Assembly (NCBI GenBank): GCA_021234535.1
Contig: CM037841.1
Span: 13,908,825-13,972,824 of the forward strand
From: Stichopus chloronotus
Taxonomy: Eukaryota > Echinodermata > Holothuroidea > Aspidochirotida > Stichopodidae
Reading direction: 5' to 3'
Length of the DNA stretch: 64,000 nucleotides
Shown here piece by piece: positions 1 to 57,606 of this stretch. The first letter of the stretch is position 1. Each line of letters begins with the position of its first letter. Made by a program: the position numbers and the translations under genes. A model generated the notes under the pieces. It was not told the DNA's origin. It saw only the letters and a program-made list of their open reading frames with translations, and searched no databases.

Positions 1-137
1 ACAAATGGCGATTCTCATTCTACTACAAGAGAAACAAATTATAACACATGATAGCGTGGAGCAACTGTACAGGATACTGAAAAAGAAATCATCAGCGAAA
101 ATTCTTTTGAATTACATGAGTTTGCTAACACGGCCAG
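1..137 (+). CDS. Partial exon, DED-like death-fold domain of GBP-like gene
   Basis: An open exon runs in from the left edge of the window and ends at a strong donor (GTAAGC at 138). The frame is open from position 2, and the Met at 5-7 is probably internal. The last 44 residues contain an L-L-Q-E-K segment, then helix-forming S-V-E-Q-L-Y-R-I-L, a basic linker K-K-K and a final L-L-N-Y helix. This spacing resembles helices 4-6 of death-effector domains such as those of caspase-8 and FADD; a CARD or other death fold is possible. The exon ends in phase 1, leaving one G. That G joins AA at 5064 to make a Glu codon, so it is phase-compatible with the GTPase gene. Whether unseen exons lie in the intervening 4.9-kb intron cannot be decided. 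Confidence in coding is good; confidence in the DED label is moderate because only the C-terminal half is visible. Confidence 0.55.
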
Positions 138-3100
138 GTAAGCAATACATATTGTGTTGATACTATGAAACATAATCATACATATGCATGTCAAATTTTT
201 ATCAGTTTTGCACCTAGCTTTCACCATCTGGAAAAAAATATTGATTGTACCGAAACTGTCTACTAAGAAATTTTCTTTAGACTATATACCTGTATACAAA
301 TTCACATATGCTGCATCAAGAGATCAAAGTTGTTGTCCAATCGTCGGCACAGTTGACGGACAAATCTAACAGGTGTTTTTAACAATAAAATTCATTACAC
401 ATTGCATTGCATTTTGACTTATATAGAAAAGTCCTGATGAAAATTGATAATCACGTCGCTAGGGAAAATTTTGTTTCTTTGTTGGAATTCCTATAAATTT
501 CCTACGGTAATCGAACTTATTCATTATTCATTTCCTTGACATATAGGTCTACTTTATTCCATACTTAGGTTAGATCTCTTTGTACAGCCTACCCTCCCCT
601 TACTATCATAGTCAAAACAAGTGAAACGGGGATAAATGGAACAATGCAAGTGAAGCAATGGGCTACCCAACTGTTTGGTTAGATTAGGTTTCAGCTAGCA
701 ACTGATGTGTAGACTTCTAAAGTGGGAGCTAATCGATCATTTTGAAAAAGTTTTGATGGCATTTGTGGCCACAACGGTGCGATAAAAAATACCTTCATAA
801 GTAAGACTTGCAAAAAACACTGGGTAACTTCAAGAAAAGTCTGATATGACAAAAAAAAGTCACTGAAATCATGTCCGATTATGTCGAGGAATTGCGTCTG
901 GTGAACGGTTGTTCCTGAACAACTTTTGAAGAGGGAGATTTGTGGGTATCGTGTGACGTTTGTCCTCGTGCACGTACACGTGAGAAGGTGGTGAGACAAA
1001 AATTGCTACAAACCTTTCTAGCAACATATTACTGAGTTTCTGCAATTAAAAAAGGGCGGGGTACCTATGTCTCGTTATAAACTGCTGGGTAAAAGTTAAC
1101 CAAGTTGGTTAAGATGTGCAAATTGTTGGGTAACTCAAGGAAAGTAATTTTTGGCAAATTTTTTGTTACCCAACCCTTTGCAACGAGGCAAACGTGACCC
1201 CGTTACGTAACATGGGTAAAAGTTTCTTTCAAACGTTTGTAAGAGTGTAAAAGCAATTCTTCTTCCTTACCCAAACAACTTTTAACTATTCTAAACTATA
1301 ATAAGTGATGTATACTGTATGCATTGGAAGAAGATGTGCTTCCTAACCTCAGTTTTTCTTTCGTCCTCCTCCATCTTTAATGGGGACTTTTCGATTCAGG
1401 ACGGTAGAGCAACAGGACGGGAAATTACGGCACGCTTACACGGCGTCATGAGATTTAAGGAGTTCCGTTCTTTTTTAAGACAACCAACGATGCGTTAAAA
1501 TGGCGAGGGCAATCACGCTTGCATTCATTAACAAATTTACAAAGCTTTGTTGGCTTCCAACCTCATCACTATGCTGTAACAATGAAAGAGGGAAATTCCT
1601 ATGGCAACCCTTGTACTGTCATATTTCTACATCGGACGTTAAATTGGTCGACGACAGTTCTGAAAATCAACAGGATGGAGGAATGCTGGCTTCTGCTCAT
1701 CTGCAGTCCAAGTTTTTGTTGCACGTACCATCCTCTTTGTCAACTGTCCTGAAATGGAAAAGTCCATATTATAAATTAAAAAAAACACAGCCCCGAATTG
1801 ACGCAAGAGAAATGTCCATTCAAGTCTCATTAGGATCACCGTATATCGAGTCAATAACAATGCTACGATAAAACATGCAATAACATTTATATTTCTCGGC
1901 TTATCTCGCTTTTCCACGCCCATTCTAATAAATTAAATCACAGATGACAGTTTAGTTTTTTCATTTCTACAGTTGTGATAGTTTACCCTTACCACTAGGG
2001 GACCCAGGATTTTTTTTTTTGACCACTTACCTTATTTTCGTGCATTGTGGGAGAGGTCCTCCTGAACTGAAGGGTTCATATAAAAGTAGTGACCTTAATA
2101 TGGTTTACGACTGTATCTTTCAAAACCGTAACGAGAGAAGCAGTAATGAGATGTCAGAAATATAATATTTGTGAAAGGTGCAATCGATCAATCGATATAT
2201 TGGGTAGCCCGTGCACAACTTCCTCCCCCATCCTCACTCGCCACTTTTTAATAAACTTAAAACCCACGTATGCTTCATGTAATATACTTACAAAAATAGC
2301 AAACATCACACGCAGGACAATATTAGAAACATAAACACGTTTTCAAAACTGTATATTTTACACACCCCTGCGACCTTCTTCAGCACTAACGATTGAATGA
2401 AGAAAAAATATTTAAAAACAACAGATCAGAAAGGCTTGTACATGCCCACTTACAGCACCGACTTGGGGATAAACGAGTGGGCAATCCACGGAGTTTCAAA
2501 TTTCATCCCTATTGTTTTCTCCTGAAGTAAGCTGAGCTGCATATTTCATCAATGACTCAGATTTTACGTTGTGGGTAGAAGTGCTGAATTCCAGTTAATT
2601 AAGTAGAGATTTTGCACGTAATGTCATACTTGGCAACTGTTGTTACGCCGCCGCACTAGATGGACTCAGTTTTTCGTGTAACTAGTACCAGGCCGGACTC
2701 AGTACTTGAACACTGAAGTATTGTTATTACTACAGTATATTTTCATATTTTTCGTTGTATATTTTCATTGCTCATAGATGGTAAATGGTCCTTAACTGCG
2801 TAGCGGTAGAATGTACTAATCGGAGAATCAAGAAGCCGGAGCTAACGTTACACCGATTTCCTGCAAATTAATAAAGAAGCAGACGGTCGGTTATTAGCAG
2901 TGCGTTGTTTTGTTTTCCACAATAGAGCGTTTCCATGAGGAACTTCACGTCACTGTAAAACCTATATAGCATTGCAATACACCGCGTTAGCGTCGAACGG
3001 CATACATACCTGCATGCTCGTACATATCATGTGCCTAGATATCGAGAGTGCGTCAAAAGTACTCCCAAAAACACGTGACCGTCGGAGTATTCCTCATATC

Positions 3101-5063
3101 CGCACTTCCCGTCACTGCGTATGCGGGAATGCTTGGCTCAGTACATTGTTCCACTTCTTAAAAACTTGTGCAGTAGATCTCTTTATGTTTACGTTGTAAC
3201 AATACACTGAGTGAAGGTATTATCAACGCACGGGAAATGACATTGGCACAAGACGTTAACACTCAGCCAAGAACTGGTTGTATAGCTTGAAATACCGTGT
3301 CACATTAATGGAAAGGCAAATATGTAGAAGCTACGTTGACACCATCATACTACAACCACCAAACACTGTATTATCATCTTTCCCCTTGACCTGTGACGTC
3401 ATCAGTCGGGCGGACACTACATCTCACACCGAGGCACCCACCTACCAAGTTTGACGTTAATATGATTTATCGTCTAGGAGAAGATCGTGACGCACTTTTT
3501 CATTTTTGCCGTTTTGACCTTTAACCACATGACTTTTAACCCAGAGATGTCATAGGTATATATAAAAAAAATCTTGTACCCTCTACTGTATACAGATTAT
3601 TGCTTTACAACTCTTAGGATATTCACACATAGAGAAACTTCTAAACACGTTTTGTTTTCGTGACCTGTGACCCTTGACCTTTTACCTATGACGTCATATC
3701 AGTCTGACGATCACTATAAAACATACCCGGGCATCTACCCAACAAGTTTAAAGTTTACCCGACTCACCGTCTTGGAGGAGATGGTAACACATTTTTTAGA
3801 GCATTTTCGACGATTTGAGCTTTAATCACGTGACCTTTGACCTTTAGAGCATTTCTGCCGATTTTACTTTCATCACGTGACATTTGACCTGGTGACTTCA
3901 AAATATTTCTGAATTTTTTCGTGTTATCAAGTTTCCATTTATGGTAGTTTTATCACTCTATTATATTTATATTCACACATTGAGATAATGCTAAAAATGG
4001 GTTTTTCGTTTTCATTACATTTCACCTATGACGTCATCACTCCGGCGGACACAATATGACATGACATTACAGTCGTGCTAAAACCCTGCTGAAGCGTTCA
4101 ACAAACCCTCTTTCATGCCCTATTACACATGTATTACGACGAACATGATACCCCTTGCCAGGCAGCTCAAGAAAGCCTAGACATTGGATTGACACACCTG
4201 AATTACTTTAGGAGAAAGATGTTTAATTGACCATGTGGATTATCACAGCATGGGGTGATAAAACTGACCTAAGGCCATGACAATTTGCAAGAAGTTGAAC
4301 CTCAGTAGAACAGAAGAAGACTGAGGTTGAAGTCAATCCCATTTTAACGTACGAATAAGGGCATGACATAGCCTGGCACCTATCGACCAAGTTAATAGTT
4401 TGTCCGACTAACCGTCTAGGAGAAGATCGTGACACACATTTTAGAGCATTTTGCCGATTTTACCCAGTTAAATCGCGTGACCTTTGACCTGGTATCGTCA
4501 TCAGTACTTTTGAGAAAAGTTATCGCATTATTTTCTTTTTATATATGGTAGTTTTATAACTCTAGGATATTCACACTGAGATAATGCTAAAATGCAGTTT
4601 TCGTTTCCATAACCACTACCATCACCATGTTTGAGTTTCATCCGATTTACCCTCTAGGAGGAGATCGTGACACAAATTCGGTTGTACACACACACACGCA
4701 ACTTTGTTTTCCACTCATTCCGAGGACCTCATTGTGCTTTCTTTTGTTTGTTTTTTTTTCCTCAACCCTAACCTTAACAATAGACTATTTATTGTTAATC
4801 TTGAGAGGACCGGAGTAATCTATTGAATTTTCCACAGAGGACCTAAAATTTACTGTTTCGGTCCTCGATCCCACCCGAAAACAAGTGCACATACACAGTC
4901 ACACCTGCACACAGCCACACACATTTGGACCCCCTTCTCACCCCCTGACCCCATGGGTAATCCCGAATCATGCCATTTGTATACCAAGGTATACTTAGAT
5001 AAAATGCTGCTTAAGTAACTTGAAAGTCTTTCAGTTATTTATCTTTTGATATCTTTCTGACAG
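138..5063 (+). other. Probable 4.9-kb intron of the GBP-like gene
   Basis: This stretch begins with donor GTAAGC and ends with acceptor TTTCTGACAG. No further exon is convincing. A 123-codon frame at 1500-1871 has no recognisable domain or splice context. Positions 3360-4680 hold a diverged repeat cluster with regulatory-like motifs, entered separately, and 4690-4930 are rich in CA and C runs. The region 800-1250 has several scattered copies of a GGGTAA-type word but no clear element. Confidence 0.5.
3360..4680 (+). repeat. Diverged tandem repeat cluster with CRE and DR1-like motifs
   Basis: At least four related units can be aligned on the shared phrase CGTCTAGGAGAAGATCGTGA at about 3470, 3766 (diverged), 4412 and 4650. 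A second shared phrase, ATTCACACA-GAGATAATGCTA, occurs at about 3621 (partial), 3970 and 4570. The palindromic CRE core TGACGTCA occurs three times, at 3394-3401, 3689-3696 and 4029-4036. TGACCTTTGACCT, whose reverse complement is a perfect nuclear-receptor DR1, occurs at 3831-3843 and 4478-4490. CACGTG E-boxes lie next to two of these phrases. The motifs may simply belong to the repeat consensus. Confidence 0.7.
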
Positions 5064-5381
5064 AAATCAAGTTCACGGGAATTTTGGAGCCAAAAAATCA
5101 TTTCATGAAACACCACGTCTCTTTAGATTTTGAGGTTTACAGGAAGCTCAACTCTTTCTTCGAACAAAGGTGTCACGTTGTCTTATGTCACATCGAAAAA
5201 GGTATTCAGTTCAAGGCAAAGGTACCGACTACGGAAGCTTTAAATTATCTGGTTCAAGCTTTGGAGAGTTCAGAAATATCTACAGAGGTTTCCTCTATAC
5301 TTGGTATTCATGGTGCTCATTTCAAGCTGGAACTTGCAAGAAATAACGTCGAAAGTGTAAGGGCGAGCCTTGATAAGGACC
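5064..5381 (+). CDS. Symmetric phase 1-1 exon, possible TRADD-N-like alpha/beta domain
   Basis: This internal exon of 318 nt (106 codons) is bounded by acceptor TTTCTGACAG and donor GTGAGTATG. It starts and ends in phase 1, so it can be inserted or removed without a frame change. The downstream junction makes an Arg codon (C from 5381 plus GT from 5640). There is no ATG near its 5' end; the frame is already open from the acceptor. The protein has an H-V-V-L-C strand, a G-I-Q-F-K-A-K-V-P strand followed by a T-T-E-A-L-N-Y-L helix, then I-S-T-E-V-S-S-I-L and a final F-K-L-E-L strand. This order recalls TRADD N-terminal-like domains found beside death folds in invertebrate proteins, but that is an inference without a search. 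The apparent stop at 5393-5395 lies in the intron. Confidence 0.7.
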
Positions 5382-5639
5382 GTGAGTATGTTTAAAGATT
5401 TCTCTACAGTAAAAAGTTACGACATTAAATTAAGATACACGTGTAACAATTCCATATTCGTTTAGACTGCTAATATTCCTGTCCCTACTTTAGAGCTACT
5501 TTCAGCTTTGAATAGAACTCATACCAAATTTTAAAGTTTCGTTTGTATGCACTGCACTTATATATTGCTTGTTCTAATAGGCTTAGCGTCACCTTGTCAT
5601 TTTACTGTTTACTAATCAGATATAACTGTGCTTTTTCAG

Positions 5640-8600
5640 GTACTACTGCCGTTCCATTGTGCCTTCCTGACAACTGCACATGGGATGATAAAACAAAGAA
5701 AATAACTGTTGACAAGATGAATCCAAGGAAAATACTCAAGATTTGCGGAAATGGAGCTGATATGCTCGAAGAAGTGGGTGATAAACCTGTTGTTGTGATA
5801 TCCATTGTTGGTCCAGCAAGATCAGGAAAGTCGTTTCTTGCGTCTCAATTACTGGACGGCGTTTCATTTGAGCTAGGTCACAGAGCCACATCTCACACTA
5901 CAGGTATATGGATAGGTGTGGGACCGACAGCCATCCCAGTTGGAGATGACGAAGCAAGGTTTGTCATATTAGATGCCGAAGGCTTGGGAGGCGTCACTCC
6001 TGATGAAGGTGGTGTTGATTCAAAATGGGAGCATAAGATTTTTTCACTGTGTGTTCTTCTGAGTTCTTTCGTCATCTACAATACTCAGGGAGTCCCTGAT
6101 TATAGTGAATTGGATAAACTTGGTTTCATTGCTGAATTTAGCAGTGCCATTTTTAATGAAAACCATGAATCAGCAAATGTAAGTTTTAGTGATTTTGCTC
6201 CCAAATTTCTTTGGTTAATTAGAGATAATCTCAAAAATCCAGAGTATAAGATCAATGGGTGGACTAAGTTTGTGAATGATTACCTGCTGGTTCCCAGGCA
6301 ACACGAAAATCAGAAGAATAAGATTCGAAAGTCCATTACATCCACATTTAGCAAAATTCTTGCGACAGACCTCCCCCCTCCCACCTTTGACCCAAAAGTT
6401 GTTACAAATATATTAGCAGATGAAAACAGAAGCATAGTCAACTCAGAATTCATTGCGCGACTTGAAGAGGAAAAAAAGAATATTTCGTCTCTAGCCAAAG
6501 TAAAAGTGATGAGAGGTAGTCAGGTTACTGGACGCCAACTACATGAAATTTTGAAGCAAATAATGCCGGCAGTTAATGATGAGGGCGACAAGCTTGACGT
6601 TACTAACATGTGGGATAACGTGGTAAAGTCACAAATGCAACATTACACTGATAGAGCAATCGAACGTTATTCTAGAGAGATGGGATTAGCACCCATTCCT
6701 ATGGAGGAAGAGGAATATTACGAGCTCCATGAGAATTGTACGAAGGTTGAAATCCAAGAATTTCATTCTTCAACCAGACGTTTTGAAGACACGATACGCG
6801 AGAGACAGATTAGCATTATCAAGCATGAAATTAATTCAAAGTTTGAATCATTAGAAGTAAAAAATGAAATGGAATCATTTAAATTTAACTCCAAGTTGAT
6901 TGCGGAACTAGAGAAGAAACATTTGAATGACTTTAAGGGCTCCAGTTGTGAAAGTCTAACATCTGCAGAGAAAGATCTTATTAATGAGTATAATCAGCTT
7001 TCGAAGGGACCCAAAGCCAAAGAAGTTCAACAAAAGACTCAATTGCAGCGTGAAGTTACAATTAGTACACTACGCAAAGGTATACTTGAAGCTGCTATGA
7101 AGCAATCGCTTGAATTATTTCATAGCGCATTGACATCGTTATCATTAGAACAAAATCTCGCTAATGTGAATGAATTGTGTGCTTACAAGGAAAAACATCT
7201 TCAGCAATCATTAAATATTTTTTCAAAAGCCAGATGCAAGTATTCAAATTGCACTGTTTGTGCAGCGTTCAGTCATGAACTTGAGCAAAGATTAAACCAT
7301 ACATATGATAAAATTGAAGCAGATTTGACTCACAAATCCGAAGTTGACTGCCAAGATACCATCGACTCTTTAATAGTAGAAAACTTGCAACAAAATAGTA
7401 TGGATATGTCGTCGCTTCAGTTCTCCCAATGTTTGAAAATCAAGGAGGAAATAATTCTTCGCTATGACAAAGAAGCTAAAGGACCAGCGAAAGATAATTA
7501 TAGGAAGAAGTGTATCCAAAAAATCGACTCAGAAATTGAACGCATCGAATTGTTAATACTTCACGGTGCAAAAAAAGCTGCTTATGACGAGTTGTCAAAA
7601 ACAGTGAAGGAACTGGAAAAACGTGAGCAAAATGATGCCAAACAATTAAGCATTGCATTGAACGAAAGGGAACAATCTGTGAAAAGGCTGTTTGACGAGA
7701 AGTGTCGTGGTATGAAAGAGTTCAAAGTAAATCACTCCAGAATCGAATTAGAAATTGTAATAGGAATTGTCAGAGATGTCCTTACAATTGTGAACCACCT
7801 TAAATGGTTTAACCATTGCGTAAATGAGTATTACTGTGAGTTAGAGAAAGTGAAACAGCAATATCCCCTGGACGAAAACGAACTCAGGGGCAAAATATCT
7901 ACTGCTTGTAAGAATGCAAGATCTCTTTTGAATGATTACAAGAAAAAAGAAATGTCCTTTCAAAGCAATGATGCAATTCAGAGCATTTTGTCTGATATTA
8001 TCGAATTCGATATGGTCTCCTTTGTGAGTGAAAATTTTAAACAATCAATAGATCAATTCGAGAGAATAGGCAGTGAAATGTTGTTAAAAGCTAGCAAAGG
8101 ATGTAGTGAGTTGGTTCCAAGAAATTTAGCTATCGGCGGCACGGAAGCTGTGACAGGTGATTATGAACAAGTTAGACTGGACTGCATGGATGAATTTGAA
8201 AGACTTGGAAATGGAGTATTGAAGCAGTATTACCGTCATAAACTTGAAAGTGATATTGATAAGCTAATTCTTGCTTCTCACGCAGGAATTGCTGACAATA
8301 ACTTTAAGCAATTATTAAGGAAGTTTAGGTCATCAGCCGAAAATATTCTGATCAATGGACCATGTGAGACGGAAGACCTGAATGAGAAACTGAAAAAGAT
8401 AACTCATGAACTAAATCAAGAGACAGAAGGACTTTACAAGTCGGTTAAAGATTGTAATTTTACGTTAACAGAGGAAATGATAACAAGCACAGCAGACAAT
8501 GTTAAATGTTACATACAAAATAAAAATCACAGACTCTCTGTTGAATCATGCAATGAGTGCCGTCTTAATGTATTGCAAATGCTACACAGTAAATGCAAGG

Positions 8601-9439
8601 ATTTAATTGAGGACCAACAAGATGGTTTCGAAAATCCAGAAAAATATTTCTGCCACATTAAAATGACATTCTTTAATGACTATTATGATAAAGCAATTGG
8701 ACCAGCGAAGGAAATTGTTGCCGAGACATTAGAGGTAGAAATTGAACGAAAAGTAGACGAAACTCGCAAATTATTGAAACGAAATATATTTGAAAAGACA
8801 ATTATCAAGGCAGCAAGCACGTTTAAGACTTGCTGTAATAGGTTTAATGCAAAAGTGACCACATGTGGTGAATTTGACATAGATGTATTACACCAACAGT
8901 TAAACGAGAGTCGTGAAGCCTTTGTGAAGTCATTTCCGTTCGAAGAAGAATTAGATAAGCTGAGTGATGCTTTACAAAAACAATGTGACGGAAGTTTTCA
9001 ATCTGCAAAGCCAATTTTGAGTATGACGTTTCTTCTGGAAGGGAAACGTACATACGAAAAACTCATTGCAGAAATACAAGAACATATCTTGGGAGAAGCC
9101 GAACTTCAAAATAGAGTAGCACAAGCGAGAGAAACGTTTTCACAGAGATTTAAGCAAAACTTTCTCCGTGAGTATCCCGAAGTTTCACTTGACTTGGAGA
9201 ATTTCATGTCAACTTTAGAAAATCTTCTTCCAGATGATAACCACCGTCGTTCACGTGACCATTGTGAAAACGTGCTTCAGGATGCATTAAATGACATAAA
9301 ACGTCATAAACAAGGGGGAATGGCTGGTTTTCGTGACTGGTATGAACAAGTAAGTAAAGGACCTGCAACTGAAGAAATCTGGAGCGAACATTTACCAATA
9401 ATTAAAGAGAGCTTTAAGTCTCGTTGTGTCATTTTGTAG
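5640..9439 (+). CDS. GBP-like large GTPase with long helical stalk and CaaX box
   Basis: This single 3.8-kb exon has acceptor TGTGCTTTTTCAG and adds about 1265 residues. The Met at 5543 is inside the intron and is not the start. The G domain is of the GB1/RHD3 type: P-loop GPARSGKS at 5810-5833 with the GBP arginine-finger position kept, switch motif HTTGIW, G3 DAEG at 5972-5983 and the GBP-type RD guanine motif at 6221-6226. All these suggest an active GTPase. Downstream, nearly all-helical sequence extends about 900 residues, against about 280 in human GBPs. It contains four copies of a Y-x(3,4)-K/I-G-P-x-A-type motif near 6988, 7461, 8682 and 9338. The first matches the GBP helical-domain motif best. 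The protein ends in CVIL (9425-9436), a CaaX box of geranylgeranyl type as in human GBP2 and GBP5. In this family such proteins coat vacuoles or pathogens and assemble inflammasome platforms. The gene sits downstream of DED-like and TRADD-N-like exons in the same phase. It is clearly not a classical GBP1-7 orthologue. Confidence 0.92.
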
Positions 9440-20806: not shown

Positions 20807-21130
20807 TTATGTATCCCCTTTGCTTTCCACCAACAATACTAACTTGTGCACAGGTCGCTCTAAAAAAGTTAGCTGACACCTTCGCTTGCCCTTATCATTT
20901 AAAGGAGAGCTCATTACAACTTTCACTTTACGAACACAGTTGTCCTTATCGGGGTAAGTCTCTACAACTCTAGCTAAACGCCACTGATTTCTACTAACAT
21001 TATCCTCTTTAACAATGACAATATCGTCAACCTGCATATTTCTGGATGGTAAGGTCCATTTTTGCCTAGCTCTTATGTTAAGAAGATATTCCTTTCGCCA
21101 ACGTGTCCAAAACTCATTGGCGAGATATTG
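20807..21130 (-). pseudogene. BEL/Pao integrase C-terminal (DUF5641-like) domain remnant
   Basis: The minus strand reads R-Y-L/I-Q-Y-L-A-N-E-F-W-type residues, W-R-K-E-Y-L-L-N, then V-D-D-I-V-I-V-K-E-D-N, W-R-L-A-R-V-V-E-T-Y and a final L-E-R-P-V-H-K-L-V-L-L. These are the hallmarks of the domain that follows the integrase core in BEL/Pao elements. The frame ends at 20807. It is separated from the integrase core by an insertion or G-rich expansion near 21140-21215. Confidence 0.85.
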
Positions 21131-21249
21131 AATCCTACGCCGTCTTTTACAACAGTAAACGTCAGAAGAGGTAAATACGCCGGGGGGGGGGGGGCAGCAA
21201 AACTTCAGATTTTTGAGTCAAGAGATGGTTGGGAGTCAATGGAGCGAGA

Positions 21250-22470
21250 GATTTAGGATCGTTTAAAGTGTCTGCAGTTAAAGGTTGACTGTTTACAATC
21301 GCTGTCGCCTCACAAAGAAAGGTACGTAAGCCTTCGTCATCTAAGTGTCTGTCAGGAATGAATTAACAAGGCGTCGAGAACATTACGCACGGTGCGAATT
21401 TGTCTTTCCCAAACACCTCCCATGTGGCTAGCGCCTGGTACATTAAATTTGAAGGCAAATAAATCACAGTCTCGCAGCGAAAGAAATTCCTTAATAGCAT
21501 CATGATTTAGCTCAGTTACTGCTTGTCTAAGTTTGTTTCTTGCTCCTACAAAATTTGTCCCTTGATCTGACCGCAGTTGTCTAATCCGGCCACGCAGTGC
21601 AAGAAATCGCCTCAAGGCATTCAAGAATGAGTCTGTGCTTAGAGAGTCTGCTACTTCAACATGAATAGCCCTAGAGTTCAAACATGTAAACAAAGCGCCA
21701 AAGCGTTTCATTGTCTTTCGACCCTCCCTCACATAAAATGGACCGAAATAATCTACCCCGCAATATGTAAACGGTGGAGATGACTCTAATATATCGGTCG
21801 GCAAATCAGCCATTCTTTGGGTTTGGGTCTTCCCGCGCAATTTGCGACAAATAACGCATTTGTGGATAACGCTTGACACTAATGACGTACAACCAATTAC
21901 CCAGAAACCATTTCTCCTAATCTCATTTAAAGTCATTCCTCTTCCCTGGTGCTCGACCTTCTGATGATAATGACGAACAAGCAAATCTGTAAGATGATGT
22001 TTACGAGGAATTATTATAGGATGTTTCAGTACATCTAGATCAGCGTGCTTCATGCGGCCACCAACCCTTAAAATACCGTTATCATCTAGAAAGGGATCGA
22101 GACTGCGCAAAGAACTAGAGGACTTAACATTGCCCTTAGAAGACAAATCCCTGATCTCTGTTTCGAAGCAACTCATTTGCAATGACTTAACTATCCCTAA
22201 TTGAGCTTCATGTAAGTTAACAACCGAACATGATCCATGATCAGGTGACTGTGGCTTTAGGTTGTCTACACGTGATCTCAATTTACGTTTTAGACTCAAG
22301 CAATGCGCAATGCTTCTTTTAGCCTTGTTCCAAGAAGAAATGTGGTCTAGTCTAGAAGGCTCAAAATACGATGGAAAGCGCGCACTCCGAGTGACAAAAA
22401 CCTTAACCCCTCTAAGTTCTTCATCATTCTCGCATACTTCTGGGGCAACACTGTTGTCACTCGGAATCTC
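21250..22470 (-). pseudogene. BEL/Pao integrase: zinc-binding and catalytic core remnant
   Basis: The longest block (315 codons from 22299, with homologous residues continuing up to about 22470). It has an H-x-x-K-V-E-H-Q-G zinc-binding segment and C-V-I-C-R-K-L-R-G. The three acidic catalytic positions are all present: V-D-Y-F-G-P, S-D-Q-G-T-N-F and W-E-R-Q-I-R. The block ends downstream in a stop at 21352, but related residues (L-D-D-E-G-L-R-T and V-N-S-Q-P-L) continue in another frame to about 21250, showing a frameshift. The enzyme would insert retrotransposon DNA; here it is broken. Confidence 0.9.
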
Positions 22471-22476
22471 GCTATT

Positions 22477-22990
22477 TCAAAGAAAACGTGGTCCATTGAA
22501 CCAACTAGGATGACTAATTAACTGTGATGCAGTCAATCCTCTAGCCTTACCCATTGCGAGAGTGCAATGAACCCTACCTTCTGCATTCTTTAGGCGCAAG
22601 TAAGAGCATTGACCGTATCCTGTAGTACTAGCATCGAAGAAATGGTGCAACTCTACCGCGCATGCGTGAAATGAGCGGTCTGGTTTGTAACATCGTTTAA
22701 TTTTGATATCCTCCAAAGTAGACAAACTGCTTCGCCAGCGCTGCCATAGAGAGAGCATATTATCAGGGATGGGGGCATCCCATGACAAACCCTGACTACA
22801 CAATTGTTGCAGTATCTGTTTTCCTACCAGCATAACGGGAGAAAGTAAGCCTAAAGGATCATAAACCGATCCTAGAGTGGACAAAACACCTCTTCTGGTC
22901 AGAGGATTATCCTTCAGAGTGATTCTAAACTGAAGAGTATCTGATTCGATGCACCAGTGTACCCCTAAAGCTCTCTCGGTGTCGTCTAGC
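22477..22990 (-). pseudogene. BEL/Pao connection/RNase H region with internal deletion
   Basis: The minus frame reads L-G-V-H-W-C, S-T-L-G-S-V-Y-D-P-L-G-L-L-S-P and F-F-D-A-S-T-T-G-Y-G-Q-C-S-Y, the start of the RNase H-like fold. It then passes directly from T-L-A-M-G-K-A-R to G-L-T-A-S-Q-L-I. In intact members well over 100 residues, including the remaining RNase H active site, lie between these two motifs, so most of RNase H is deleted. Confidence 0.8.
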
Positions 22991-23029
22991 CCTAAATTCA
23001 GGCGTTTTTCTTCCTTACAAGAAGATTCT

Positions 23030-23731
23030 TGATTAACAGAACTTCGAAGAGAATTTATGCAATTTTAGGCCAACCTTGCCGCAAAGCGCTCTAGTTCTCT
23101 GTATTAGATCTATGGCTGTCTCATCGCTATCTACTGATTTAAGACCATCGTCCACAGAAATTACGATGAATGAAGTCTGATACATCAGCGCCATATTTGT
23201 TCCCATAATCTACTGCTGCTTGCCTCAGACCGAAATTCGCACAACCTGGAGAGGAGGTTGCCCCAAAGAGATGGACAGTCATGCGATACTCCGCAGGGTT
23301 ACCATAACGTCGCCATTTTCCCACGATAGAAATCTAAGAAAATCCCTATGCTCATGGTTAACTTTGAACTAATGGAACATAGCATCTATGTCGCATGTAA
23401 AGGCAACTGACTCCTGGCGGAAGCGGCATAGCACACCTTCCAAATTGTTTGTCAGATTTGGGCCTTGCAGTAAGTGATCATTGAGAGACTGATTCCTGTA
23501 CTTGGCACTACAATCGAAAACAACTCTTAATTTGCCGGGTTTCTGCGGGTGATATACGCCGTGATGCGGAATGTAACTGACGTAACCATCGTTTCTTGCG
23601 AGCTCATCCTCGCGAACAATTTCTGCATACCCTTTACGAGTTAGATCGCAAATAAAATGTTCGTAGGCAGCCTTGTAGGTAGAGTCTGTAGCTACACGTC
23701 GTTCTAATCTCTTAAGTCTATGCAACGCCAA
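23030..23731 (-). pseudogene. BEL/Pao reverse transcriptase remnant, frameshifted
   Basis: The block 23731-23369 reads G-Y-V-S-Y-I-P-H-H-G-V, R-V-V-F-D-C-S-A and L-N-D-H-L-L-Q-G-P-N-L, then T-C-D-I-D-A-M-F-H with the first catalytic Asp. A second block, 23324-23139, continues in another frame to H-R-N-F. The catalytic double-Asp motif lies in a third frame near 23145-23155, because a short deletion shifts the frame exactly at the active site. The enzyme is inactive as it stands. Confidence 0.85.
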
Positions 23732-23752
23732 TTCTCTGTTATTTGGTAATAC

Positions 23753-35145: not shown

Positions 35146-38100
35146 GTAAGTAAAGTCACCCACTCTCCTCCTTTGTATGTAGTTCTCGTAGAATCTTAGT
35201 GAACCTCTAAAGAAGGACATGCCTCTCCAGTGATGCAGATGTGTGGGTACAGTGCACAGAACTGTATTGTACAGTTCTGTATATAGGAATGGACTCAACA
35301 CAATTTTGTGGATTCTTCATACAGTAGGGACTTAATATTCAACATAAGTGGAAGTGTGGAGATAATTATGTTTGTATATACTGTATTTAATTTGGTGGTC
35401 TCAGTTCTAGTGTATTGTACAGGTACAATCACTGTAGTGCATACAGTATATAAGTTGGTTAAAGTGTGCTTTACGTGAAGGGAAATAGGGCATTTAAAAT
35501 TCACCAACATGACATACAAAGAAAATTTTAATCATTGTTAAGCCATCAGTCTTATCAATAAACATATGCCAAAGCTTCATCTCCTCAAAACATTATGCAT
35601 GTGATGAGTAACAGAGAATGCATCATTTGAATTTTGAAAAGTTTGGGTGAACAAATTATTGCTGTGCAACAAATAATTGAATTTTTATCTGTGAGGACTT
35701 TGTTTTTAAAAAGAAGGCTAATCTACTGTCCTTGCTTATTTTAAATAATCTATCATTCTATGTTCACAAACACTGGTTCTAAAAATATGGTCGTTTCTTT
35801 AAACAAACGCCTCATTTCCCTTTAAAAATGTTTGCCATGCTGATCCGTGTCTTGATTCTTAAAGGATCTATATCAGTTGTCGCCAACATATTAAACTTGT
35901 GTTTAAATATGTTTGTTAACAGGAAATTAATACATTCTACATGTATACTGTATATCAGTCTAACGTCACCATCTGGTCAGCCACAGATGTGGAAATATTG
36001 TGTTTCAAGCTGAAATATGAAGTTGGAAGTTTGTCAGTGAAAGTGAAATTCTGCGAAGTATGTCACAGCTGCTACAAAAGTAACATTGTTTAAGCCCTAT
36101 TTTTGCATAGATGAATATTCATATCCATTCCGAATTGGTCTGTTTGATTTCAAGTAACAATGATTAAGTGCTATGCTTTCCTGGAGAGTCTGAATTTTGT
36201 AGGGCCAACAAAAATGTCAAGACAATGTTCATACGTAAGGATTTTGAAGAGTTTTTTTTTCAGATTTTTTTTTCACTTTGTATGCTTTCTGCTTTCCCTT
36301 TTCCATCTTGGACAGAAATTAAGGAAGAGGCACAGCGAAAATCCAGAAAAATTTAAGACTCTCCATGATATGGTAGACGATGAAATAGAAAGGAAGGTAA
36401 CAGATGCAAAGAACTCTGCCACAGATGCACTACTATGGCTTGTAAGGTAATGTTCATAGTCAATCAGTTTACAATATTGAACTTGGAGCAAAGTGGCTGA
36501 TTCTTTCAAATCTCCAAGTAATGAATATTATTTAAGTAGTAATGAATTTTTCACATTTTGTATGTAGGAGTTTTAAAAGGACTTCAGGATTTTGTAATAT
36601 ACTCTGATGAAGGTTTGGTTGTGCACAAGTAGTGTTATAGAGTAGGTCTTTGGCTTAATTTTTGCACATTGGTATACCCATCTTGTGTATTGCCTTTCTT
36701 TAATTATAATATCTGGTGATTTATTTCCCTGATATATGCAGTTTCCTGGTTATGTAATATGATCTACAGTTACCCGTTTTACATTGCGTGTGTCAATATT
36801 ACAGTACAGCTACGGCACTAATGTGTGACTTTGATGTAATGTTGCCACGTTGTTGTAATGTTGTTTGTTGCAATGTTGATGCAATGATGATGTTCAGCAC
36901 AGAACATATAGCACAGGTACTGTAAATAGAAACAAGGACCATTGCTGAGGGGGGGGAGGGTTGCATCTTATTGTGATACAGAAATCTTGATAGTGTCAAA
37001 CAAATATCATAGGGCATGGTGTGAGGAAGTGAAACTGGTCAAAAAAGTTTAATAAGTACAAATAGTATTGCTTGATAATCCTATATGGCACAATGGAATA
37101 AATGCATGAACTACCTCAGGTCTGCATAGAGCTACTCAGCAGCCTACATCCATCTTGTGTGTCAGTGAGCCAATTTATGCAATGTGGCCAGGGTTGTTCT
37201 GTATACAGTAAACAAGCATATTGTGAACTGTTTGGAATCAGATTCCTCTCTTTTCCTTCAGCTTAAGACAGCTATAGGAATAGTTCAGCAAGAAACCCAA
37301 TAAGGGCAGGAATTTATCGTTACCTACAGTACCACTGACTAGGATTGGATATTTTATCATAAAATATGTGTTTGGTAAATGAATAGTGAAATGGTCGTCT
37401 GTTCTCGTGCAAGTCCCTCCTAAAAATCAGTGCAAGTGACATTCCGTGCAAAATTTTTAGCATAGAGCTACTCAGCAGCCTACATCCATCTTATGTGTTA
37501 GTGAGCCAATTTATGCAATGTGGCCAGGGTTGTTCTGTATACAGTAAACAAGCATATTGTGAACTGTTTGGAATCAGATTCCTCTCTTTTCCTTCAGCGT
37601 TAGACAGCTATAGGAATAGTTCAGCAAGAAACCCAACAAGGGCAGGAATTTATCGTTACCTACAGTACCACTGACTAGGATTGGATATTTTATCATAAAA
37701 TATGTGTTTGATGAATGAATATTGAAATGGTCGTCTGTTCTCGTGCAAGTCCCTCCTAAAAATCAGTGCAAGTTACATTCCCTGCAAAATGTTCTGTCTG
37801 TACTTTCATTACAAAAATTGGGCACAAACTAAGCCATATCTCTTAGCCTATTGAAGATTTAACCCTCTCTGCAGACCATTGCTGATACGCCTTATGCATT
37901 CTTCCAAGATCAATTGTCCAAATTAATATATTTTTTTTCTGAATACTTCACTGGCATGTGGTAATGTAGTAGGCCTGATAGTGCATCTACTAAATACTCT
38001 TTGCATGTAAGTTTAATTTTGTCACCTTCCAAGAGACTTTTTTGTCTGATGTCAGAAACAAAAACTACTTCTACTGAGTTTAGTTGTGTGAACTACAGCT

Positions 38101-51722: not shown

Positions 51723-54700
51723 CTGAAACGAAAATGAATAGTACAGGATTCATTTATTAAGAAAACAAAAATCACACAATGTCAAAAGCGTGTAAATCCG
51801 TTAGTGTTTACACCTCGTCCAAAAATTCGGACCCTGGTATCTGCAGTTGGTAACTGGTCTGGTATCTGGGTAAGAAAAAAGATGACTTCTGTTTGAGTCT
51901 TCCACTTGTTGAAGTCATAAAATGACTTGCTTTGCACAGTAACATAACACCATGTGTCTTATATGGGCACGATTACAAAGTAACAGCATGTGTACTGAAA
52001 TACCAGAAGGATTAGATTATGTTTGATCTTGACGCTGTCTTTACTTTTAATGCATATGTCAGGTTGTACACAGGATAGATTACATCTTTCAATGAACAAA
52101 AATGACAGTACCTACTTTGAAAAGCAATGGGATTGGTATAAAAACAGTGAAAAACAGAAATCGTATTTGAAAATTAACGGTTCCATTATGAGCACCTACA
52201 TAATAAATATATAACAGTACAGGTCTCATTGGTGTATCAAAAACACGCTACTCAAGTCTTCGCTCCTTGGTCGGTATCTGGAATTGTAGTATTTGGTGAA
52301 AGCACTGCATTTACAAATAACCTACAAACTGATCCCATCATTGTGGCATCAGTGATCCTGAGTTGTTCTGACGAACTGAATATTCAACACTAGTGTACTT
52401 CCGACAACCAATCCTCACATGATATCACACATGTTTATCCCTTCTAGAGAGGTAACTACCTTCACCATTCTGGCTATCAGTTCATGTTTGATCGTGTGGA
52501 AGAGGTCTTCTTGAGACAGGATTTTAGCAAATTATTGAAACTGTGAGGACTAGGTGCTTCCCACTGGCTTGTTCAAAGAAGCATATGATTGACTTTAATG
52601 AAAACTGTCAACCACTACATTATCGTATTTTACACTTTTTGTGAATGATAGAACTATATATCAAGACTATAAATTATATGGCAGAATTAACCACCTGAAA
52701 CCTATTTATTTTCCCAAATTGTCTGAATGGTCCAGTCAAAAGCCCTACCAAAGTTTTAGATATAAACTTTCAATGTTGCTACTTTTTGCCTCCGCACACA
52801 ATCACTTTAAGTTTTTGCTTACACATACAAAGTAAATTAGTGAAACTGTGGATCTGTCTAGCAATTTCAGAACTAGGTCCTGTCATTATCAGTCGGGTAC
52901 CTGGATAGTGGGTACACTCTGGCAACACTAGTATAGGCAAACAATTGGGTGCACTGAATACTCACTCTCCAGGGTGAAGCTTCTGCATGTGGGTTCTGTA
53001 GCAACTTCTGTCCATCCATGACTTGTCGCAAATAGTGCACTTGTGGGGTTTTACACCGGTATGTTTCACCTCGTGGCTTTGACGGGCCGCAAAGAGAGAA
53101 AACCTCTCATCACAATATCTGTAAGTTAAAATTGAGACTTCAATGCACATTGCTTTCAGTGCTTCTGCTTCACAAGGAGCTACAATTTGGTGATGTTCTG
53201 GAATCAACGACTTGACGATGGTCCCTAAAAGGGTAAATCGGTGGACTTTATAAGGGCCCTGCTGCATTAGGTACTGTGCAGGCCTCTACAACCAATTTCT
53301 TTAAGAACTGCATCAACTGCAATGGTTTCTTTTCACAATGAATGATTAGTGACAAATTTACGTGGATAAAAATGGCAACTCAAGTTTCACAGTTCTATTT
53401 CTATACAGATCTAAGAACATGACAATAATTTCCCCAGAAGTGAAGTAGAAATGCAGTAAACATAATCAGTTTTATGTTGTTTGATTGTTTGATTTAAATC
53501 AGCAGGATCAAAATCACGATTAAAATCAACAATGCTGCATAAAACACAAGGCTGAAAAGTATAGGCAATCTATGTCCATGTATGGGGTGCAAGATACTGT
53601 ACAGTATGCCAGAAACAAGCAGACAATAATCATTCAATGCTGTAGTTGTGATATACATTGTGAAACAAATTTTTGCACCTCCTCCATAATATAAATCCAC
53701 ATCTCTGTCGCACATTTGTTGCAACAAGAAAAAAAGAAAAATATCTGCAAATGCAAATTCAATCAGAAAGTGCCTCAGTAGGCTTAAAAAAAATGTAAAC
53801 TATTATGTGGCCTATGATGACGTTCCACAAGTAATATGCATGATGCCTTTTAACCAAGCAGTTTTCCATGCTCAAGCTAGAGAGAAGAATGACACACATA
53901 CTGTAGTGTGCTCATGACACATAAAAATTGATGTCCTTTGATAAAACAGCATTTGATCAAAGTGTAAAAAGTCAGGCAAGATGTGTGTTCACAACTACCT
54001 ATGATACCTGCAGCATTCCTCTTTTAAGTTACCTGCATTTAATTGGCTTTTCACCGGTGTGTCGTCTCATGTGTTTTTTGAGGTCCCAGACACTCAAGCC
54101 ACACACAGCGCAGTCCGCTCTCTCGGACGTGTGCAATTTTTGGTGGTAGTACTTGGTAGAGAGTGCCATGACTTTCCCACAGATATCACAGGTGTACATC
54201 TTACCCTCATGTTGAGCCATGTGATTTCTTATGTTGCCTTGCTTGATGAGTTTATGGCACAGTTGGCACGTTACGGAGTAACTTTGTCGGTTCTGATAGT
54301 ATTTACTCTTCTTAGCTTTTGCTCGCTTTACATCAACATCTACCTCCGCCTCTCCGATGCCATGCATGTTATAAGCATGCCTGTTGCAGCTCTTGGAGTC
54401 ATCAAACTTCAAGCCGCACACTTTGCATACTGCAGGAAAAACCTCAAAGTGACGTCGCTCATGTTTATTGCGACCAGATGTTGACAGGAAGCTCCGTGGA
54501 CAGTATCGACAAGTGAATTCTTCTCTTTTGTTACTGTGTAGTTCCATGTGGCGTTTCAGGGCCTCATTTTTCTTGTACATTTTGCCACATATTTGACAAA
54601 TATGATTCCCCCTTGAAGGGCCATCATGGATTTTCATGTGATCTTTCCTCGAGTTCATTCCCACAATTTTGCCACAAACATCACATAGGAACGCCTTTGC

Positions 54701-55924
54701 TTCTTTTAACTTTTTCCAATTTTCATTCGCTGTGTCCGAACGGAACTTGAACATCTTGCGCCGTTCCTCTTCTGTTAGATGTCTGATGAATGGAACCTTT
54801 CTGTGGCCTCTACCAACTGAGGTTTGGGGTCCTGCGCTAGCACTGACTCTATAAGAGCTACTACACTCTACAGGTTTAGCCTCTGGATACACTTCAAAAA
54901 TACTTGCAATAGCTTCCAGGAGTCCTCCACTATTGCCACCATCTTCTGGCGTAGAGGGAACAAAGGATGATGCCTCAGTTGAAATGACGCCGACGTCCTC
55001 CAGATCGACGATGTCCACTGACTTGCCGATGCTCTCAAAGTCTGCAGTTTGACCAGGAGAGGAGGTGTCAGGATTAATGTCACTTGTCAAAGTATCAGCT
55101 GGTGCATGTTTGCCACTGGTAACCAAATGATTTGTGACTTCTTGACATTCTACGTCAGGGAGTGTATCGGTGCTTTCTGGTTCTGGAGGTGATTCTGTAG
55201 GTGGTTCTGGTAATGATTCTGATGATGATTCTGGTGGTGGTTCCTCTACATGAGGACTCACTGGACCGTCCTCTCTTCTTTCATCAAGCAGTTGCACTGG
55301 TTCACTCTGCATCTCATCAGCCCCAGAGACACCGTTCTCTCCATCATCATTCACTTGTCCACTCTGCATCTCATCAGCCCCAGAGACACAGTTCTCTCCA
55401 TCATCATTCACTTGTCCACTCTGCATCTCATCAGCCCCTGAGACACGGTTCTCTTCATCCTCCTTCACTGGTCCTTTCTTCATCTCATTAGCCCCTGAGA
55501 CACAGTTCTCTCCATCATCCTTTGTTTTCTCTATTCCTGCTCGCAGCCTCTTTAATCTTTTCTGCTGTCTTCTTACCTTCATTACTGTCACTTTACTTGC
55601 CCTCCTTGGTCTTGATTTCCCTTGACTGGTCTCCTCGGTCACAGGCAGCTCTACATGGTTCATTAGGCTGTGCATGTGATCCAGTGCAGTGTGAGTAAAC
55701 AGATCAGCCTTCTCTATGGCAGCTGCTAGTTCTGAAACCATGCCTGCGTCAAGCATGACCATTCCGTCACCGTTGAGTGGGGCATCTCTGGTGTCTGGAA
55801 GGGAAAACTTTTGACATGGACAGGTTACAAGGACACACTGGACAACTTTCTTTTCTGGATTTTCCCAGGTGAAGACTAGAGGTCTTTTGTCTCTGAGGAT
55901 CTTTACTTCCACTTCAATAACACC
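51629..55924 (-). CDS. C2H2 zinc-finger protein gene, nine fingers
   Basis: Three phase-compatible exons read on the minus strand: 55924-54033, 53118-52966 and 51722-51629. The product is over 700 residues without its N-terminus. Order: a beta-rich start (V-I-E-V-E-V-K-I-L, F-T-W-E-N-P), a helical A-A-A-I-E-K-A-D-L-F segment, basic R-R-Q-Q-K-R-L-K-R, four acidic 18-residue repeats, a Pro/Glu/Ser-rich region and then C2H2 fingers. Seven fingers lie in the large exon (the seventh has a short C-to-H spacing), the eighth is split by an intron, and the ninth ends at H-P-G-E. Such proteins are usually sequence-specific nuclear DNA-binding regulators; the target is unknown. No KRAB, BTB or ZAD domain is visible. 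Upstream exons may lie at 57607-57723 and 59570-59615. Confidence 0.88.
52966..53118 (-). CDS. Zinc-finger gene exon, fingers 8 (part) and 9
   Basis: Acceptor TTTTAACTTACAG supplies the third base of an Arg codon started in the large exon, completing finger 8 (C-R-Y-C-D-E-R-F) and adding finger 9 (H-K-C-T-I-C-D-K-S-W). The exon ends GA|GTGAGTATT. If it is not spliced, TGA at 52964-52962 terminates the protein one residue after H-P-G-E. Both isoforms are possible. Confidence 0.85.
54033..55924 (-). CDS. Zinc-finger gene large exon, fingers 1-7 and acidic repeats
   Basis: Acceptor TCTCTCATTCCAG precedes G-V-I-E-V; the Met upstream at 55963 is intronic. The donor CAG|GTAACT splits finger 8 between its two Cys residues. 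Fingers 1-7 lie at about 54690-54040, including two with non-standard linkers and a basic K-R-A-K-A-K-K-S-K spacer between fingers 4 and 5. The plus-strand frames over 54059-54484 and 55201-55491 are antisense shadows. Confidence 0.93.
55290..55520 (-). repeat. Four 54-bp in-frame repeats in the zinc-finger gene
   Basis: Four 18-codon units share D-D/E-x-E-N-x-V-S-G-A-D/N-E-M. The middle units are nearly identical at DNA level, indicating recent unequal exchange. The repeats are acidic and could act as a disordered spacer or activation region. Confidence 0.9.
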
Positions 55925-56579
55925 CTGGAATGAGAGAGACAAAATGTTGCAAATAATCTTCATAGTCTATCCCATTTTACAATATCCTAAGTATGATCCA
56001 TAATTGACAAGGAAAAGCTACTCAGAACAACCCTAATGGTTTTTAGACATTTTAAACAGTACTCTTTCATTCAAGGCAATTCATGCATTACAATACAATT
56101 TTTGTAAGCAGCTGAGGTCCCCATCAAATCTGAAATCTTGGAATACTTTGCTTAATTTCAATTTGTGCAGTATTTAGCCATTTAAGTTTACAACAAGACA
56201 TCATGAACCATGTTCATCGACACTAGATGCTAACAATCTTACAGACCTGTAATACCCATACAGTAGGTGCACATCCTAGACAAAAAGAAGCACTTTCACA
56301 TTAAATGAACCAGAAAGCCAAAAAGCTTTGTGATTCCTTGCCACATGGTTATATTATAACAAAGTTGAATTATCCACATGACAAGTATAAGGTCAACTGC
56401 AGTTATTTTTCTTGATACACCACAAGCCTTTAACTCAAAATGATCTATATTTTGGGTAACCTGACATGACCGTGACATTTGACGTCCATCAAAAGCAATA
56501 GGGATCACCTACCCAGTATGGCCAACCCACACATCAAGTACAGTATGATATCAGTCAACATTACCCTTCTGGAAAGTCA

Positions 56580-57218
56580 CTACCACATTTCCAACACTGG
56601 GCTTTGTTTGCACCATTTCTTTTTGGCACTGTCCCAGTTTTTCGGTAGTTTACTTTGTACTGTTTCCACTTTTGGTCCTTCAATTTCTGTACCATTTTGA
56701 TCCGAGATAATAAGTGCTCTCCCTAAGTCAAGTATCTCAGTTAAGTTGCGGTTCGGTTCCTTCAACACTCTTCGCGGCAATCGTGATGAACTGCAACTTT
56801 GAATTATCTGTGATTTGATTTCTTTATCTATATCCATAAACTGACAATAATTTGCTAATTGCCTCAGCCTGGTGGTAAACACATCCAACGTTTCGCCTTC
56901 CCCTTGCTTTGCTTGACGAAACTTGAAAATCGCGTATTCAGTATTTTGTATAAGTTGAAAATACTCCGTCAGCTTGGTTTTTGCTGTGTCATAATCTGTA
57001 GAGTCTCCAGTTTCATTAAGTGTTTGAAATATTTCAGTAACGCTTTCCCCTCCAAAATGAAGTAACATTGCCCTTTTACGAGCTTCATCCTTGATATCAA
57101 ATGCAATGAAGAAGTTTTCCAATCGAAGTAGCCATTGCTCCCACCCGCACCGCATGCCAATACTTGCATGATCCGAATTATCTCTGAGACTGAACTCAGT
57201 AAAATGTGGATAGGCCAT
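56580..57218 (-). mobile_element. Ty3/gypsy-type gag ORF, solitary
   Basis: A 212-codon frame opens with M-A-Y-P-H-F. It has the gag capsid-like order W-E-Q-W-L-L-R-L-E-N-F-F, L-L-H-F-G-G, N-T-E-Y-A-I-F-K-F-R-Q-A-K-Q, E-T-L-D-V-F-T-T-R-L-R-Q-L-A and S-Q-I-I-Q-S-C. A zinc-knuckle start (Q-C-W-K-C-G) appears only after a one-base frame change near 56600 and is then cut by a stop. No protease, RT or LTR is seen nearby. The main frame is intact over its length, so it is either a young truncated insertion or a retained gag gene. It lies in the same orientation as, and just upstream of, the zinc-finger exon. Confidence 0.8.
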
Positions 57219-57606
57219 TTTAATTGTCAGAATTTAATCCATTTTCTTCTAGTATTAAGGTCTTCCTTGAAGGTTTTCAGAGTCAAGGATCCCATCTTCA
57301 TCCCCATTGTAAGATTTTGAGAAAACACACTGGAGACTCAGCAATGCATCTTGCTACTTGTATTTCTGATGGATATATAACTGCAGATTATTCTCATAAT
57401 AAAGGCCAATACATCAAATATTTATGGAATGCCTTAATATACACAGGAGACAGTCAGTGGTAAACTGGGCAGGAGTCTTTGTTCTATCAAAGAGATAAAT
57501 GAAGCGCAGGTGACAGCTTTCTGACCCCATGACCTCCCAGTTACTGAGACAACCTATGGCGGCCTCTGAGGGAGTGTTTGAAAAGTAAAAGTTATTCTCT
57601 ACTTAC

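Follow-up and report, generated by a model that had tools for sequence, protein, structure and literature searches.

A sea cucumber gene predicted to join DED-like and TRADD-N-like exons to a GBP large GTPase with a repeat-built stalk

At one end of a 64,000-nucleotide stretch of the Stichopus chloronotus genome (assembly GCA_021234535.1, contig CM037841.1, positions 13,908,825 to 13,972,824, forward strand; hereafter the window, in whose numbering 0 is the base preceding window base 1) lies what is very probably an immune-type host gene, with at least a DED-like death fold, a TRADD-N-like adaptor module, a GBP large GTPase, a long helical stalk built of repeats and a CVIL end as its predicted parts. 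Segments 2-137, 5064-5381 and 5640-9439 of the + strand, when joined, give 1417 residues with the terminal stop as the only one, and the codons split at the two phase 1 junctions close as G+AA (E) between exons 1 and 2 and as C+GT (R) between exons 2 and 3, bearing out the single reading frame through phase 1 junctions that an earlier note on this DNA had claimed. The splice sites, with a slash at the exon edge, read CAG/GTAAGC, GACAG/AAA, ACC/GTGAGT and TTCAG/GT. Intron 1 (138-5063, + strand, GTAAGC ... TTTCTGACAG) has splice consensus ends and a shorter counterpart, at an equal place and in equal phase, in a related gene (paralog B, below); intron 2 (5382-5639, + strand, GTGAGT ... TGCTTTTTCAG) is supported by its splice sites and by relatives, in 9 of 11 of which tblastn homology begins at the exon 3 acceptor (5633-5645). 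Splicing of the three exons is predicted from the genomic sequence, and the genomic architecture itself is real and well supported.

The third exon (5640-9439, + strand) is a single GBP exon that runs through the GTPase domain, the long helical stalk and CVIL to the stop. PF02263 is found in it with an E value of 8.4e-29 (101 bits against a gathering cut-off of 21.1), its PDB sequence match is GBP2 (7e58, E 1.8e-25), and the modelled structure of its first 1200 residues is like that of GBP1, to which it aligns as far as about residue 486. The GTPase motifs GPARSGKS, TTGIW, DAEG and LIRD are all present, with RD replacing NKxD. In an alignment (A1) of 13 rows, which takes in 12 of 13 relatives (P0011 left out) and 1200 of the 1265 exon 3 residues, the P-loop GPARSGKS (G1, 5810-5833, + strand) is invariant at G57, P58, R60, G62, K63 and S64, DAEG (G3, 5972-5983, + strand) at D111, E113 and G114, and LIRD, the GBP RD motif (G4, 6215-6226, + strand), at R194 and D195. 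The CaaX-type end, CVIL with its stop (9425-9439, + strand), is shared by P0001, a relative at 72% identity that keeps its frame to the end; CVIL is a prenylation-type end, and prenylation itself is predicted. The domain, structure and motif matches and the CVIL end uphold the earlier description of a CaaX-terminated, GBP-type GTPase. The first 1000 residues of exon 3 had no match in a plasmid collection.

At E 1 the window protein shows no entry for PF02841, the C-terminal helical domain; P0008 and P0012 do match PF02841, and units of both went into a profile that the stalk fits. This stalk-unit profile, derived from pieces of the stalks of relatives centred on the motif, fits seven stretches of the joined protein: three strongly, at 6722-7132 (motif YNQLSKGPKA, 93.0 bits), 7184-7609 (YDKEAKGPAK, 88.0 bits) and 8378-8827 (YYDKAIGPAK, 91.9 bits), one moderately, the weak unit at 7901-8332 (11.4 bits, i-E 1.1e-5), all on the + strand, and three marginally. 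Because P0001 is among the sources of the profile, strong matches at its positions are expected, and the point of the result is that one profile fits several places. A Y-x-GPAK-like motif recurs at joined-protein residues 602, 760, 1166 and 1385, and P0004 (2086 residues) has eight copies of such a motif, four of them spaced 231-233 residues apart. The multiple matches and the repeated motif point to duplication of a GBP helical unit as the source of the great protein length, also in relatives that have no DED-like part, and P0004 indicates that GBP length varies by duplication of this unit. Residues 1021-1946 of P0004, a protein named as from Apostichopus japonicus, form four closely similar tandem stalk units of 227-233 residues; the profile was partly built from them.

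The middle exon (5064-5381, + strand, 318 bases, phase 1-1) probably encodes a TRADD-N-like fold of the RRM type, a reading supported by comparison of its predicted structure. The model, of low confidence, is RRM-like with the TRADD N-terminal domain as its nearest structure, which takes rank 1 in Foldseek and ranks 1-2 in VIA-align, both comparisons using the one model; in structural alignments, exon 2 shares 9-10% identity with TRADD-N (1f3v, 1f2h). If exon 1 is indeed a death fold, exon 2 lies between a death-fold-like exon and a variable effector in both the window and paralog B. No other internal exon of 300 bp or more on the + strand of the 64 kb passes our splice cut-offs (donor at least 7/9, acceptor at least 10 pyrimidines in 15; starts between 5500 and 9440 excluded). 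The codon usage of exon 2, judged against exon 3, is best in its own frame, and its score is exceeded by those of 4 of 36 other open stretches of 100 codons. That the exon is a chance open frame was rejected, given that it is the sole + strand exon of its class apart from the GBP exon, that its model is nearest to TRADD-N and that paralog B has a related exon. Sequence searches were negative: Pfam gave no family for exon 2 at E 10, NCBIfam nothing relevant, and a homology search with the N-terminal 155 residues retained none of 163 candidates at E 10, these being proteins of about 250-795 residues only. The TRADD-N label of the earlier note thus stands as a likeness of fold, the top one in both comparisons of that model, without the Pfam match or the serine of the uS motif. 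This motif, located in the turn that joins strands 2 and 3, is given for TRADD-N in section 8 of the survey by Kaur et al. (2021, PMC8195603).

For exon 1, the window holds only the last 45 codons (1-137, + strand, corresponding to about helices 4-6), a DED-like 3' part identified by its frame, a profile match and the related exon in paralog B. In the upstream assembly DNA the frame stays open for 66 codons beyond the window edge, to an AG acceptor that makes a 303-base exon of phase 1 at both ends (window -165 to 137, + strand, L010:9660-9962); position 137 is its end, and the exon is not complete within the window. Against a profile of six verified human DEDs, the one death-fold family scored, the full exon has an E value of 0.018 and its stretch ranks 1st of 875 open stretches, with 2 of 5000 shuffles doing as well; the open stretch of the window part alone ranks 1st of 667. 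Aligned by hhalign, the two exon 1 sequences (window and paralog B) match the six human DEDs with P 0.0015 over 64 columns, against 0.18 for stalk units with DEDs and 0.054 for exon 1 with stalk units as controls, and paralog B's exon 1 on its own scores E 0.12 with the human DED profile. PDB sequence searches with exons 1 and 2 together, exon 1 and full exon 1 gave only weak, unrelated matches. We lean towards calling exon 1 DED-like on its sequence, below every curated threshold; the DED label first given to it keeps its death-fold leaning, from the profile and hhalign results, and lacks a relevant Pfam or PDB match and the RxDL motif.

Paralog B lies on contig C9 (about 27298429-27301153, minus strand) and has a DED-like, then a TRADD-N-like, then a GBP exon, the exons about 0.7 kb and 0.4 kb apart. 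Between it and the window gene, 36 of 95 aligned residues are identical in exon 1 (alignment score 184 against a maximum of 51 in 1000 shuffles) and 33 of 84 in exon 2 (136 against 50, also in 1000 shuffles), while the start of the GBP exon is 50% identical. Conservation is highest at second codon positions: in exons 1 and 2 it is 0.71 and 0.62 there, and 0.45 and 0.43 at third positions. The splice sites of paralog B (CCAG/GTAAAG at the end of exon 1, GCAG/AAA to CA/GTAAGT around exon 2) match the window gene in phase, and by eye an AG/GT stands at the matching place before its GBP exon. Since this paralog, at 37-50% identity, keeps exon order and phases, the linkage of the three modules proposed in the earlier note is supported, and chance does not explain the agreement. 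Sequence and fold comparison show the open frame, an exon order kept in a paralog, and the domains, of which the two N-terminal ones are likenesses.

A much closer copy of the gene is present on C9, at 98.7% identity over 22 kb to that on C13 in the 719-Mb assembly (opposite-strand pieces and pieces of 150 bp or less were dropped). All its exons and splice sites are intact and its GBP exon has no internal stop. Exons 1 and 2 are identical in the two copies, with 0 differences in 303 and 318 bases, and intron 1 has 13 in 4926; with zero differences, a test of constraint between the copies is uninformative for these two exons. Exon 3 (5640-9439) differs from C9:27184608-27188402 at 1.05% of bases and intron 1 at just 0.26%, an unevenness that perhaps reflects gene conversion or diversifying change. 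The duplicated block spans at least about 58 kb, window -33475 to 24727 against C9:27227538-27168743, in pieces of 94-99% identity on two chromosome-size contigs (pieces of 300 bp or less, or of 88% identity or less, were dropped); either a segment was recently duplicated between chromosomes, or the assembly has misplaced a second haplotype. A third, degenerate relative of exon 2 (copy C, L023) has a stop early in frame, and no exon 1 relative was found at E 1 in L023, L031 or L032. Upstream of four other GBP loci (L004-L007 with L015, L017, L019 and L021), none of the four has a DED or TRADD-N exon at E < 0.01, a search that more diverged exons could escape. Degenerate GBP pieces, most with internal stops, occur on C13 at 13895108-13897913, which is some 17-19 kb upstream of the GBP exon, and at C9:27204944-27208853, so that the gene sits in a birth-and-death cluster. 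BEL/Pao-type retrotransposon pieces (Peptidase_A17, integrase, DUF5641) lie about 11 kb downstream, within the duplicated block (window 20807-23752, minus strand). Farther along the window are an exon with a match to PF08718, the family of glycolipid transfer proteins (36148-36450, + strand, E 1.1e-9), and, on the minus strand, a C2H2 zinc-finger open frame (54029-55966) and a PNMA/gag-like one (56580-57233).

Fusions of this general kind are already in print. According to the sections of Kaur et al. (PMC8195603) used here, DEDD2-clade TRADD-N and a death-fold domain, usually a DED, form the constant regions of proteins whose variable parts include GBP GTPases; such genes are expanded in echinoderms, to 18-23 copies, and in other marine animals, and retrotransposons are associated with, or near, TRADD-N genes. 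The window gene belongs to the kind reported there, differing in that its exon 2 has no uS serine, and the novelty implied by the earlier note is weaker than thought. Sections 8 and 11 of that paper give no multiplied stalk, no CaaX end and no species for the GBP fusion, and our literature search found no other report of a TRADD-N/GBP fusion; new here are the exon boundaries, the exon order kept in a paralog, the fold test of the middle module, the repeat-built stalk and the CaaX-type end. Vertebrate GBP1, GBP2 and GBP5 share the GTPase domain and its motifs, the first part of the stalk and the CaaX-type end, whereas the window protein adds the N-terminal DED-like and TRADD-N-like modules and has a stalk roughly three times longer, made of repeat units (GBP1 chains have 592 residues). 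TRADD (1f3v, 1f2h) and DEDD2 have the TRADD-N-type fold, and DEDD2 also an N-terminal DED, but neither has a GTPase. The holothurian GBPs P0002-P0008 and P0012 (Apostichopus japonicus, Holothuria leucospilota) share the GBP start and a repeat-built stalk; they differ in their N-termini, show no DED-like part by eye, and 0 of 8 end in CVIL. In zebrafish Gbp4 (DrGbp4), a fish GBP with a C-terminal CARD, of the type that the earlier note rightly mentioned, a death-fold module is also covalently attached to a GBP, and its loss leads to caspase-1 defects; there the module is C-terminal, with TRADD-N unmentioned in the part of that report used here (PMC9005921), while in the window gene it is N-terminal.

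The explanation that best covers the whole, and which we hold to be rather probable, is one gene with all five parts whose product would, driven by GTP, coat a membrane and bring death-fold adaptors together in clusters. Vertebrate GBPs undergo GTP-driven dimerisation and polymerisation on membranes, are anchored by prenyl groups and recruit caspases through their coats, and a CaaX box ending in leucine usually favours geranylgeranylation. The CVIL end would be prenylated and would anchor the stalk to the membrane; on GTP binding the G domains would dimerise, and the molecules would coat a pathogen or a pathogen-holding membrane, like vertebrate GBPs. This coat would crowd the N-terminal modules, which would then signal, the DED-like part nucleating a death-fold assembly together with a caspase or adaptor that carries a DED, and the TRADD-N-like part recruiting a partner protein (TRAF2 in the case of vertebrate TRADD). 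The vertebrate two-step of a GBP coat followed by a separate caspase platform would be built into a single chain. Given the architecture, we put the chances of a death-signalling mechanism at about even; from the sensor-to-death-signalling fusion envisaged earlier, the exon combination stands and the function is one that we infer. A bolder version, tentative and rather doubtful, is a one-chain inflammasome: a prenylated GBP whose GTP-driven coat would itself nucleate a DED filament and switch on a caspase-8-type protease with no separate adaptor proteins, the stalk acting as a spacer from coat to heads whose length varies between paralogs by unit duplication.

A number of results weigh against this architecture or its proposed role. 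The exon 2 model was built from one sequence, and of five models only the best exceeds a pLDDT (the predicted local distance difference test score) of 45; the turn between its strands 2 and 3 (39-44 and 48-52) is KGI, without the uS serine, and that of paralog B is DKEN, again without it. For exon 1, at least 8 of 5000 shuffles outscore the window fragment on the DED profile, the hhalign probability with DEDs is just 17%, and in Pfam at E 10 neither the window part nor the full exon matches DED (PF01335), the sole entry for the full exon being DUF7189 (E 0.088); a wrong frame beats the proposed one in codon usage measured against exon 3. RxDL near helix 6 is a DED hallmark, and it is absent here (the window gene reads SAKI and paralog B reads SGQI), as it is from caspase-8 DED2. 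The missing RxDL and uS residues favour the view that the fusion is real and its N-terminal modules have no part in cell death, serving just to oligomerise or target the GTPase, for example in restricting viruses or intracellular bacteria; we consider this unlikely, since a death fold and TRADD-N with a variable effector is, in the consulted sections of PMC8195603, a recurrent architecture of apoptosis and immunity in marine invertebrates.

Of the 13 relatives, P0008 is the only one in which inspection by eye finds a stretch of similar, domain-like size ahead of the GTPase, and this stretch resembles exon 2 weakly (0.35% of 2000 shuffles equal it; hhalign P 0.0072, probability 5%; no meaningful BLASTP match); six Apostichopus proteins (P0002-P0007) carry different N-termini, short or repetitive, ahead of an equal GBP exon start. 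These six would suit two adjoining genes, of which one is a DED/TRADD-N adaptor gene that ends in different 3' exons and the other an independent GBP gene spliced into 5640 from a different first exon. We regard this arrangement as quite unlikely: exon 3 opens at a phase 1 acceptor and has no Met before MNPRK, the phase 1 donor of exon 2 is just 258 bp upstream, paralog B repeats the three exons in order at its short spacing, and P0008 does have its weakly similar stretch immediately before the GTPase. In paralog B the GBP exon loses its frame after 346 codons and its RD motif is gone, so that the architecture may be decaying there, and the 28 amino-acid-changing and 12 silent codon differences in exon 3 between the 98.7% copies look near neutral, with no sign of strong constraint. 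These differences, with the degenerate pieces upstream and on the other contig, would fit a decaying copy with no present function in a birth-and-death cluster; against this, which is very unlikely in our estimate, stand the intact exons and splice sites of both close copies, and P0001, with its frame and CVIL retained.

If the single fused gene with its membrane coat is the right account, the case bears on how these systems work in other animals. Vertebrates have GBP coats and caspase platforms as distinct proteins that are brought together on bacteria, and a covalent fusion of these parts in an invertebrate would be independent support for their acting in one pathway. It would also be a simple experimental object, in which coat assembly and death-fold nucleation can both be tested in one protein, and the repeat-built stalk would provide a natural series of GBPs differing in length.

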